Origin: Acetatifactor sp.
Lineage (GTDB): Bacteria; Bacillota; Clostridia; Lachnospirales; Lachnospiraceae
NCBI GenBank assembly: GCA_022511425.1
Contig: JAFLRO010000004.1
Location: 1 to 64,000, forward strand
Direction: 5' to 3'
DNA length: 64,000 nucleotides
Translations under genes and position numbers: made by a program
The notes under the pieces: model-generated
Seen by the model: only the letters and a program-made list of their open reading frames with translations
Database searches by the model: none
Told to the model about the DNA's origin: nothing
Part shown: one piece after another, positions 3,181-9,722 of the stretch
Layout: each line of letters begins with the position of its first letter
Position numbering within the stretch: position 1 is the first letter of the stretch

Positions 3181-3204
3181 AATTGTTTGTAGGTGCTTTT
3201 TTAA

Positions 3205-3343
3205 TTGGCAGGGTAGAGAGTTTTATATAAAGCTCGGCTATGAGGAGGTGGGACAATACTCAAGTCCCCAAGATGGATTCTCGGATCTTTTTTTCAAAAA
3301 GGATCAGTCAGGATTTGCTGAGTCTGCTAGAACAAAGCTGTGA
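3205..3343 (+). pseudogene. GNAT acetyltransferase C-terminal remnant
   Basis: GREFYIKLGYEEVGQYSSPQDGFSDLFFKK resembles the GNAT C-terminal motif; no N-terminal domain, and the ORF start lies in a terminator hairpin. Confidence 0.45.
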
Positions 3344-4098
3344 GACGGTTCCCTCACGCATCATCAATGGAAAATGGGCTTTCTACTCCATTTTTAGCTA
3401 GAAATAAATTAATTTCAGTCACATTCTTACATTTCTGATTGATACATACGATAATCCCAGCATCTGCAGGAATTTTTGGATGAAGTTCAGAACATTCAGC
3501 CAAGGAAAGTGCTTTTTGGGTTTCTTTAAGGTTCATGTGTGCTCCAATACAAAAAGCAGCAAGTTTGTATTTTGTTGGATTTCTTCTGCCATCACAGATA
3601 GGATATACATAATTTTACTAAAATAGATTTCTGTATTATTGTCGAGGACGTAACATCTGGATGTTGGGAGAAATAGTTATCCAAAAAATCTTTCAATGAA
3701 GTAAATGTTTTTTCATTTTTTCTCTCATTTAAAAAGGCCTGATATGATTTATGGCCTTGAGATATATTTTCTAACTCTTCAAATAAAATGGTGGTACGTA
3801 TCCAATGTCATTGAGTTTACACGCAATTTATTAAGTTAAGGCAAAAACAATACTAAACCGTTACGTTACGAGAGAGTCATGGGAATCGCAGACAATTTGC
3901 CCTTATGGCCTCATTTTACGTTCTCTTGTTCATTTAGTTAACACATTAAAAATGTACCGTTCCAAAAACATCCTCAGAATATCACTCGACCCTTGATTTT
4001 TGAAAGTTCTGGTAGTATATAAAAGATGGGATAAACAGGGAATGGCAGAAATTCCAGCAAAAAAAAATTTTGCATAAGCTGCAACTTTTCAGAAAGTT

Positions 4099-4575
4099 TT
4101 GTGCTCTATATGTTTGGCAGGTGGTGAAACAGAAGGTGAAGCTTTAGGGCATGCATGGGTGGAAGCTACCTGCATTGAACTAAAAACTTGTAGTATATGT
4201 GAGGAAATAGAGGGAGAGGCTTTAGGGCATACCTTTACGGAAGCCAATTACCAACAACCTGCAACCTGTACGGTTTGCGGAGGAACAGAAGGGAAACCGA
4301 TACAGCCCAATTTTGAAAAGAATGGTTTTTCTTATGTGCCGGCAGAATTGGGTGTTGCCTATCCATATGAAACCCAATGCTATGTAAATCCCAACTATAC
4401 AACTGTGGGCAGTGTCACTTTTTCCGATTATAAGGTATTTACATCAGATGATACTCACGAAGCTTTAGATGGCTATGAATGGAGAGCAGTTACCATAACA
4501 TTCACATTTGATGATGACAACGTTTGGAAATATGGCTACACTTGGAGTTTTTATAGTTATGACTATTTTGGGTAA
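4099..4575 (+). pseudogene. 5'-truncated Cys-rich repeat protein fragment (CxxC ... GHxW/GHTF repeats) carried inside the element
   Basis: MCSICLAGGETEGEALGHAWVEATCIELKTCSICEEIEGEALGHTFTEANYQQPATCTVCGGTEG repeats. The start is a TTG with an in-frame TAA shortly upstream (4078), and there is no RBS or signal peptide. Confidence 0.6.
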
Positions 4576-4640
4576 CGGAAACGCTGTTTCTTTCCGTATG
4601 GAATAATTTTAAAATTTAAATAAATTATTACGACCGCAAA

Positions 4641-4682
4641 AAAATTCCCGTCTATTTTTGGCAAATAAACGGGAATTCTTTT
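4641..4682 (+). terminator. Strong hairpin ATTCCCGT..ACGGGAAT followed by a T run, inside the right end of the element
   Basis: AATTCCCGTCTATTTTTGGCAAATAAACGGGAATTCTTTTTT. Confidence 0.75.
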
Positions 4683-4762
4683 TTCAAATCTTAACTTAAC
4701 AAATCGAACCTAAACTTAATGACATTGGGTACGTATCAACGGCGACAATCGGTCCGCTTTCC

Positions 4763-6148: not shown

Positions 6149-6817
6149 ATGGGAGAATTTCGTGTATTGGAGATCAAACAAAGCGTTTTTGCGGACAATG
6201 ATCGCCGTGCGGATGAAGTCAGAAGCGAGCTGAAGGCAAAAAAAGTTTTTCTGCTGAATCTGATGTCTTCTCCGGGTTCCGGAAAGACCACAACACTGAC
6301 CAGAACGATTGAGCATTTGAAAGAAGAATTTCGTATCGGTGTTATGGAAGCAGACATTGATTCGGACGTGGATGCACAGACGATTTCTTCATTGGGTGTA
6401 AAAGCAATTCAGCTTCATACCGGGGGCATGTGCCATCTGGATGCGGATATGACAGCTCAAGGACTTGCGGGACTGGAAACGGGTGATGTGGATCTGGCAA
6501 TTCTCGAAAATGTGGGGAATCTGGTCTGCCCGGCGGAGTTTGATACGGGAGCGGTCAAAAATGCAATGATCCTAAGCGTTCCGGAGGGGGATGACAAACC
6601 GCTGAAATACCCGTTGATGTTTTCTATCTGCGATGTGGTTTTGATCAACAAGATCGATGTACTTCCGTATTTTGATTTTGATATGGATAAATGCAGAGAA
6701 GGTATCCTGATGAGAAATCCCAATGCAAAAATCATTCCGATTTGTGCCCGTACAGGGGAGGGAATCGAGGAATGGATCAACTGGCTTCGCGATGAAGTCA
6801 CCAAATGGAAAGAATGA
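6149..6817 (+). CDS. hypB: Hydrogenase nickel incorporation GTPase HypB
   Basis: NLMSSPGSGKTT P-loop, EADIDSDVDA, LHTGGMCHLDA, LENVGNLVCPAEFDTG, INKIDVLPYFDFD. Confidence 0.93.
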   Translation: MGEFRVLEIKQSVFADNDRRADEVRSELKAKKVFLLNLMSSPGSGKTTTLTRTIEHLKEEFRIGVMEADIDSDVDAQTISSLGVKAIQLHTGGMCHLDADMTAQGLAGLETGDVDLAILENVGNLVCPAEFDTGAVKNAMILSVPEGDDKPLKYPLMFSICDVVLINKIDVLPYFDFDMDKCREGILMRNPNAKIIPICARTGEGIEEWINWLRDEVTKWKE

Positions 6818-6905
6818 AGAGAAATAAAGGTAAAAGAGATACTGCGAATTAGAAGGATTATCAGCTTGCGATGTAAGGGAAGGAAAATAAAAAGGAGGAA
6901 ATCCC

Positions 6906-9722
6906 ATGGACATGATGAAGGTGTACGAAGAGTGGCCGGCAAACCATAAGAAGGATAAGAATCCCAGCCAAAAGATCATTAAGCTCGGGAAAAAGATCAC
7001 GGATGTTGCGGCTCACAAATTAAAAGGGGTTACAGTAGAAGATCCGGAGTATTGGGGACTTGCGGAGATCATCACGGAAGAGATGGCGGATGTTGCCCTG
7101 AAAATGAAGGTCAGGGCTCACTATACATTTGATGAAATGTGTAAGCTGACTCATGCTCAAAGTGATAGCGAGAAAGAGAAGCTCAGTAAGTTGTTAGAAG
7201 AAATGTGCTATATTGGTCTGTTGGAGTATGACTATGGTTATCATTATGATCACAATGGACGTACTCATGAGCAGACAGAGAGAAGATATGTTTTGCCTAT
7301 GTTTGTTCCGGGCTCCGCCGAGCTTTTCAATATGGAAGAGCTTCCCGATAGAAGCAATCCCAGATTGAGGGATCATCCGGACGTAGCATCTTTCTTTGAA
7401 AGAATGACTTACATACCGCTTGCGGGAATTACACAGATGGTGCCTCCGGGAGGCGCGGGTATCGGTATGCACGTTATTCCGGTGGAAAAAGCGATTTCCA
7501 TGGAGAATCAGTCAGTTGATCTGGAGCATCTTTCCTATTGGCTGAAGAAGTATGAAGGTCATATCGGTGTGGGCCGGTGCAGCTGTCGTGCATCCAGAAA
7601 GGTTCTCGGGGACGGCTGTGGAGATGATGATTTCGGCTGGTGTATCGGTGTCGGTGATTTTGCCGATTACTGCCGTGAGACCGGAAAAGGTCATGACATT
7701 ACTTACGAAGAGGCAATGGCGATTCTACAGCGTGCTGAAGAAAACGGGTTCGTTCATCAGGTCACCAATATTGACGGCGAGAATAAGATTTTCGGTATCT
7801 GCAACTGTAACGTCAATATCTGTAATGCACTGCGTACTTCTCAGTTATTTAACACGCCGAATATGTCGCGTTCTGCGTATGTGGCACATGTTGATAAAGA
7901 GAAATGCGTGGCCTGTGGGCGCTGCGTAGAGTATTGTCCCGCAGGTGCGGTGAAACTGGGACAGAAGCTTTGCACAAAAGACGGCGGCGAAATCGAGTAC
8001 CCGAAGCAGGAGCTGCCGGATGAAGTGAAGTGGGGACCGGAGAAATGGGATCCCGATTACAGAGATAATAACAGAATTAACTGCCATGAGACGGGAACAG
8101 CTCCCTGTAAGACGGCCTGCCCTGCGCATATCGCAGTACAGGGTTATCTGAAAAAGGCAGCTCAGGGCAAATATCAGGAGGCACTGGCACTGATTAAGAA
8201 ACAGAATCCTTTCCCGGCCGTTTGCGGACGTATCTGCAACCGTCGCTGCGAGGACGCATGTACAAGAGGAACCATCGATCAGGCGGTCGCTATCGATGCG
8301 GTCAAGAAGTTTATTGCCGAGCAGGATCTGAATGCAGAGACCAGATATATTCCGCCCGTAGTGATTCCTGCGAGCATCCATAAACAGCGCTGGGATGAAA
8401 AGATTGCCATTATCGGCGGCGGCCCTGCCGGACTTTCTGCAGCATTTTACTTGGCGGAGAGGGGATATTACCCGACAGTATTTGAAAAGAACGAACTGCC
8501 GGGAGGTATGCTTCAGTACGGTATTCCTTCCTATAAGCTGGAAAAAGATGTGATTGCAGCAGAAATCGATGTAATGCGTCAGATGGGCGTTGAGATTAAG
8601 ACCGGAGTGGAAGTGGGCAAAGATATTACGTTGGATGAACTGCGTACACAGGGCTATAAGGCATTTTATATTGCCATCGGCTGCAGCGCGGGCCGTCGTC
8701 CGGGCGTTCCGGGTGATACGGCAGAGGGCACCATGACAGCCATTGAATATCTGAGAGAAGCCAATACCGGAAAGACTTCCTTTACCGGTAAAGTAGTGGT
8801 GGTCGGTGGCGGTAATGTTGCAATCGACGCATCAAGGGTCAGCATCAGAAGCGGCGCTTCAGAGGTGACGCAGCTTTGCCTGGAATCGGAAGCTGAGATG
8901 CCCGCATCTGACGAGGAAGTTCGCGAAGCAACCGAAGACGGTGTTGTGATCAAGAATGGTTGGGGACCCAAAGAAGTTCTCGTTACAGACGGTAAGGTAA
9001 GCGGCATTGTATTCAAGAAATGTACCGCTGTATTTGATAAAGACGGCAGATTCAATCCTACATATGATGAGAACGATACACTTACCATTGAGTGTGACAG
9101 AGTGATTTTCGCAATCGGCCAGCAGATTGTGTGGGGAGACCTGTTAAAAGGGACAAAAGTAGAATTTGGCCGCGGGAATGGGCCGGTTGCGGATTCCCTC
9201 ACTTTCCAGACCGCAGAGCCGGACATTTTTGTGGGTGGCGACGTCTACACAGGGCCAAAATTTGCCATCGATGCAATTGCACAAGGCCATTATGCAGCAG
9301 AATCTCTACACCGTTTCGTTCAGGGCGGTCATATGACCATCGGACGCAACCACTGGGAGTTTATCGAGCTGGATAAAAACAATATTTCTGTGGAAAGCTA
9401 TGATAATTCATCCCGTCAGGTAGAAGGAAACGATGCATCAGTTGAAGCAAAATCATTCCGCGACGCGCATCTAACCCTGACCGAAGAGCAGGTGAAGACT
9501 GAAACCGCTAGGTGTCTGGGCTGCGGTGCAACAATCGTGGATCAGAATAAGTGTATCGGCTGTGGTGTATGTACAACGAAATGTGCGTTTGATGCAATTG
9601 CCCTGCACAGAGACCGTCCGGAATGCACTAATATGGTTCCTGCGGAGGATAAGTTTAAGTATATCATTCCTTATCAGTTAAAGCGTGCAGTGAAGATTGC
9701 CACACACAAGAAAGAGAAATAA
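6906..9722 (+). CDS. Multi-domain FAD/NAD(P) and 4Fe-4S oxidoreductase (GltD-like core with N- and C-terminal Fe-S segments)
   Basis: 938 aa; CVACGRCVEYCPAGAV, GltD-like CKTACPAHIAVQGYL...CGRICNRRCEDAC, two Rossmann motifs (IIGGGPAGLSAA, VVGGGNVAIDASR), C-terminal CIGCGVCTTKCAFDAI. Confidence 0.9.
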   Translation: MDMMKVYEEWPANHKKDKNPSQKIIKLGKKITDVAAHKLKGVTVEDPEYWGLAEIITEEMADVALKMKVRAHYTFDEMCKLTHAQSDSEKEKLSKLLEEMCYIGLLEYDYGYHYDHNGRTHEQTERRYVLPMFVPGSAELFNMEELPDRSNPRLRDHPDVASFFERMTYIPLAGITQMVPPGGAGIGMHVIPVEKAISMENQSVDLEHLSYWLKKYEGHIGVGRCSCRASRKVLGDGCGDDDFGWCIGVGDFADYCRETGKGHDITYEEAMAILQRAEENGFVHQVTNIDGENKIFGICNCNVNICNALRTSQLFNTPNMSRSAYVAHVDKEKCVACGRCVEYCPAGAVKLGQKLCTKDGGEIEYPKQELPDEVKWGPEKWDPDYRDNNRINCHETGTAPCKTACPAHIAVQGYLKKAAQGKYQEALALIKKQNPFPAVCGRICNRRCEDACTRGTIDQAVAIDAVKKFIAEQDLNAETRYIPPVVIPASIHKQRWDEKIAIIGGGPAGLSAAFYLAERGYYPTVFEKNELPGGMLQYGIPSYKLEKDVIAAEIDVMRQMGVEIKTGVEVGKDITLDELRTQGYKAFYIAIGCSAGRRPGVPGDTAEGTMTAIEYLREANTGKTSFTGKVVVVGGGNVAIDASRVSIRSGASEVTQLCLESEAEMPASDEEVREATEDGVVIKNGWGPKEVLVTDGKVSGIVFKKCTAVFDKDGRFNPTYDENDTLTIECDRVIFAIGQQIVWGDLLKGTKVEFGRGNGPVADSLTFQTAEPDIFVGGDVYTGPKFAIDAIAQGHYAAESLHRFVQGGHMTIGRNHWEFIELDKNNISVESYDNSSRQVEGNDASVEAKSFRDAHLTLTEEQVKTETARCLGCGATIVDQNKCIGCGVCTTKCAFDAIALHRDRPECTNMVPAEDKFKYIIPYQLKRAVKIATHKKEK

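Follow-up and report, generated by a model that had tools for sequence, protein, structure and literature searches.

A transposon relic with intact ends and a clear insertion scar in an Acetatifactor genome

The element and its surroundings

The DNA analysed here, a 64-kb stretch of an Acetatifactor genome referred to as the window, harbors a relic of jumping DNA that is a real element: its transposon ends are intact and its insertion scar is clear, but it has no mobilising enzyme of its own. It spans positions 3803–4727 (925 bp), with boundaries set against those of about ten related elements, has the outer ends CAATG...CATTG, and is made up and flanked as follows:

3793–3802, no strand: left target-site duplication, GGTACGTATC, 10 bp, identical to 4728–4737
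3803–3840, plus strand: left terminal inverted repeat, 38 bp, CAATGTCATTGAGTTTACACGCAATTTATTAAGTTAAG, matching the right repeat at 31/38 positions; same ends on IS4-family elements
3841–4037, plus strand: left-end leader with promoter-like TTGATT (3993–3998), a 17-bp spacer and TATATA (4016–4021)
4087–4575, plus strand: passenger gene fragment for a Cys-rich exported protein, comprising a pair of CxxC/GHxW repeats and the beginning of the C-terminal domain; truncated at both ends
4638–4682, plus strand: intrinsic-terminator-like hairpin (inverted repeat) just inside the right repeat, −14.2 kcal/mol, z = −3.05
4690–4727, minus strand: right terminal inverted repeat, 38 bp, CAATGTCATTAAGTTTAGGTTCGATTTGTTAAGTTAAG, partner of the left repeat
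4728–4737, no strand: right target-site duplication, GGTACGTATC; homology to the nearest relative, G230, resumes at 4738

Apparent gene remnants occupy positions 3188–3790 between a GGDEF/EAL gene and the element, and a search of 137 further genomes of the genus gave no match to positions 3330–3801. The insertion adjoins the remnant of an amidohydrolase terminator that is present as a whole in G230. Beyond the duplications, the sequence reads AAATAAAATGGT on one side and AACGGCGACAATC on the other.

The two terminal inverted repeats are 82% identical, and the duplication is perfect and lies immediately outside both of them. No second inverted pair of 38-mers (at least 31 matches, 200–3000 bp apart) occurs in the 64-kb window, nor does any pair of the same stringency occur in five Markov (dinucleotide-frequency) shuffles. 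A preliminary description of the locus had rightly recognized inverted repeats with a perfect direct duplication, but gave the repeats as 39 bp (about 32/39 matching) and the duplication as 8 bp, since the ends had been placed one base too far out on each side. The 8-bp duplication and the CC...GG ends that go with it were dropped in favor of 10 bp, because the same shift of the ends yields perfect 9–11-bp duplications in paired relatives, from a list that was selected for matching duplications, and because the target duplication expected for the IS4 family is about 10 bp (PMC2266710). Pairs of ends with an imperfect or no direct duplication also exist (L074, L109, L110 and L111). At L074 (8088–9805), a copy of a related IS, the two flanks form an inverted pair (TTACTATTCACAGT/ACTGTGAATAGTAA), without direct duplication.

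No transposase is encoded between the repeats. The leader measures about 200 bp; its TTGATT-17-TATATA arrangement is not listed by a consensus promoter scan, nor is the hairpin by a simple consensus terminator scan. Outside the repeat, the leader aligns with element ends of the congeners G226 (z 12.6) and G313 (z 9.7), in the latter case with the promoter-like part included, while its similarity to the autonomous element L201 is not significant (z 1.3). Both congeneric element ends precede genes for ECF sigma factors. The gene in G226 is cut by the contig end; that in G313 is a complete leucine-rich-repeat fusion.

The mechanical open reading frame of the passenger fragment (4099–4575) lies behind the promoter-like sequence, with an in-frame stop codon just upstream. 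It matches intact lipoprotein-like and sigma-factor-fusion proteins of congeners at 53–58% identity (tblastn, E about 1e-52), and the fusions (as at L140) match it just as well as the plain lipoproteins. Full homologues in the genus are lipoprotein-like proteins of ~300–350 aa, longer ones of ~660–680 aa, or a 561-aa fusion with a sigma factor. Compared with the 330-aa homologue at L071, merely residues 73 to 225 are left. Hence, the 5′ truncation noticed earlier stands, but the 3′ end is missing as well, with a loss of about 105 residues. Neither the missing N-terminal part nor these C-terminal residues left a trace in any frame between the ends, and a search for a donor gene in the own genome matched only the window fragment itself. 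A Pfam match of the fragment to the C1 domain fell below the family cut-off and was taken as a spurious match to the Cys/His repeats. The remaining anatomy of the preliminary description, i.e. inverted repeats, direct duplication, internal terminator, lack of a transposase and a truncated Cys-rich reading frame, was found as described.

Elements with the same ends

The end pattern CAATGTCATT.AGTTT-N7-ATTTRTTAAGTTAAG constitutes a two-block 38-bp end that, with at most three mismatches, occurs in 11 of 138 genomes of the genus and, out of 397 genomes of the family, in a single further one. The short-end pattern matches 39 of the 138 genomes with one mismatch allowed, some of them by chance. In single scans with the 38-bp pattern, only the L104 element was retrieved from genome_contigs and nothing from viral_contigs, and the phage and plasmid collections held no DNA resembling the element beyond short chance-level matches. 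The elements of relatives, delimited by pairing ends through their duplications, include:

L105, 1738 bp: simple IS with an IS4-type transposase
L117, 1723 bp: simple IS with an IS4-type transposase
L201, 3601 bp: passenger genes for an FMN reductase and a GNAT protein in addition to an IS4 transposase that has the YREK motif (NF033592, E 1.6e-50); duplication GGGCAAAAGG
L203, 3690 bp: IS4 transposase (NF033592, E 3.8e-50) with a SUKH passenger; 11-bp duplication GAACATTAGTC
L104/L079, 1159 bp: intact metallophosphoesterase gene, no transposase; duplication CCCATTAATG
L065, 2198 bp: EAL-domain gene between two ~213-bp miniature elements
L200, 3148 bp: no transposase recognised
MITEs with the same outer ends in congeners: 75, 134 and 186 bp

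The relatives listed carry perfect 9–11-bp duplications. The YREK signature (Y-2-R-3-E-6-K) is present in eight transposases, seven of them full length and one partial, from relatives that share these outer ends, and all four of the relatives' transposases that were scanned match the NCBI IS4 model. The autonomous partner that the preliminary description had called for exists in related species, in the form of elements that share these ends and encode an IS4 transposase (L201, L203, L105, L117). Among these, L201 and L203 both have the two-block end. In L201, the end, promoter, transposase, passengers, terminator and other end follow one another in a single direction, and the window element shares this polarity with its leader, passenger fragment, terminator and end. 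Both the polarity and a terminator at the equivalent place inside the far repeat are common to the window element, L201 and L104.

Two further arrangements were observed in this survey. The L065 block (6716–8913, G120:C7), in which a 542-aa EAL-domain gene is accompanied by the two MITEs, is flanked as a whole by a perfect 10-bp CACAATGTCC and is a composite element built from two MITEs. Fusions of ECF sigma factors with long C-terminal extensions, which contain leucine-rich repeats, GHxW repeats or unknown domains, are encoded at L140 (3507–5192), L108 (7616–9481) and L033 (7408–9372); two of these three, L108 and L033, adjoin a single transposon end of the same kind, L033 being located on C124 of the own genome.

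The own genome contains one full copy of the element and also further copies of its ends, for which the preliminary description had suggested a search, namely two single ones (C143 and C124). A tblastn search of this genome with the L074 transposase was empty, and its sole DDE_Tnp_1 match is not significantly similar to the transposase of the L201 type; the assembly is a draft of 198 contigs that is 97.9% complete and may miss a transposase copy. Since a matching transposase is absent from the assembly, the element now looks stranded. A second full copy, which would speak for recent movement, is lacking. The element is missing from the nearest relative, G230, which is collinear on either side; homology resumes at the first base past the right duplication. 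As to the empty site expected earlier, G230 is not a clean one because ~600 bp of the left flank are absent as well. No clean empty site was found in the 138 congeners, where the left flank occurs in none and the right flank in G230 from 4738 on.

Identity and origin

The element is very probably a non-autonomous, transposase-less mobile insertion cassette (MIC) from an IS1675-like lineage of the IS4 family. It consists of IS ends around non-transposase DNA, bounded by a target duplication of 10 bp (9–11 bp in relatives), and elements with the same ends encode a YREK DDE transposase. Conserved end bases have been given as -AATR--------WTW for the IS4 subgroup and CA------T for the IS4Sa subgroup (PMC2266710), and CAATGTCATTRAGTTT fits both. 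While L104 carries an intact gene, the window element has no complete, potentially functional passenger. Since its fragment is truncated at both ends, it is best read as a degenerate MIC with a decayed or deleted passenger, not as an intact one. The preliminary proposal of a bacterial counterpart of a gene-fragment-carrying MITE, or of an IS whose transposase had been replaced by passenger sequence, is well in line with this assignment, for which mobile insertion cassette is the established name.

Mechanistically, a cut-and-paste IS4-type DDE transposase has probably moved the element by acting in trans on its ends. Its ancestor was presumably laid out like L201, with end, promoter, transposase, passenger genes, terminator and end in one direction, before internal deletion and decay removed the transposase along with most of the passenger gene. 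Such an ancestor is suggested by layout and not by sequence, since outside the repeat the leader shows no significant similarity to that of L201. The simplest account is a passenger element that underwent internal deletion and was mobilised in trans by a transposase of the IS4 type.

Conceivably, a short MITE instead directly acquired part of the interior of a chromosomal gene of the lipoprotein type, in the manner of plant Pack-MITEs and without any stage that comprised a full passenger or a transposase. The fragment is indeed internal, with both gene ends missing, the genus includes short MITEs that share the outer ends, and intact homologues occur as ordinary chromosomal lipoprotein genes. 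Yet, such a capture appears quite unlikely given that no donor gene remains in the own genome, that the fragment has the position and polarity of a passenger ahead of the terminator, like the whole passengers of L201 and L104, and that the leader is common to the element ends beside the sigma-factor genes of G226 and G313. Decay in place, in which an intact passenger cassette degenerated after insertion via point mutations and small deletions, is rather doubtful. It would accommodate a reading frame that lies behind a promoter-like sequence and just downstream of an in-frame stop, and with repeats of 82% identity the insertion need not be recent; however, the complete disappearance of the N-terminal part and of ~105 C-terminal residues would necessitate sizeable deletions.

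The fragment could also be regarded as an ordinary decaying pseudogene beside apparent gene remnants, around which inverted repeats arose by chance. This reading is already contradicted and has virtually no probability: the window has no other such pair of repeats and the shuffles have none, the ends exactly abut a perfect 10-bp duplication, and they recur on transposase-bearing elements.

Relation to known systems

MIC231 is a mobile insertion cassette of the IS231 type. The window element resembles the IS231–MIC231 system (IS4 family, Bacillus cereus group) in having IS4-family ends without transposase around passenger DNA, as well as in its modular relatives with and without a transposase and in duplications of ~10 bp (PMC2266710). 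It differs in its end (CAATG vs CAT-------AA--TAA in IS231), in its Lachnospiraceae-type host and in its broken passenger. Moreover, in L201 and L203 the passengers follow the transposase and precede the far repeat, instead of being placed between left repeat and transposase. IS1675 (IS4 family, Lactococcus) has the outer ends CAATGTCATTAAGTTAAGG on both sides, and its transposase is 38% identical to that of L201. In contrast to the window element, IS1675 is autonomous and without passenger, does not have the second TTAAGTTAAG block, which at N7 spacing completes the 38-bp ends, and has inverted instead of directly repeated flanks in the copy examined (L205 in NZ_CP016734.2, CAGGGTACACTC/GAGTATACCCTG, no direct duplication). 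With bacterial MITEs, the element shares its non-autonomous nature, inverted ends and target duplication, and the 75–186-bp MITEs of congeners have the same outer ends. However, MITEs are short and present in several near-identical copies, whereas the window element measures 925 bp, contains identifiable gene sequence and is unamplified in its own genome (a single full copy and two solo ends).

By itself, the element is a lone relic and ordinary in kind, i.e. a decayed or deleted MIC. In a 2008 review of the IS4 family, passenger DNA was reported only in the IS231 subgroup (PMC2266710). The element and its relatives indicate that members of the IS4 family besides IS231 acquire and move host genes in Lachnospiraceae-type bacteria. 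We tentatively suggest that the window element might be one decayed representative of a modular system for gene shuttling in this Lachnospiraceae-type genus, in which an IS1675-like IS4 lineage with the two-block 38-bp end would carry varied whole genes (for a metallophosphoesterase, FMN reductase plus GNAT, a SUKH protein and possibly ECF-sigma fusions) and represent a second passenger-carrying IS4 lineage besides IS231. Such a genus-wide lineage is the more interesting part compared with the relic in the window, and the end pattern provides a simple search key for cassettes of this type. As to the sites of insertion, those of L105 and L104 fall within palindromes (CCTTCAGGCTTGTCCTGAAGG and CCCCATTAATGGGG, respectively), which suggests a preference for terminator-like hairpins.
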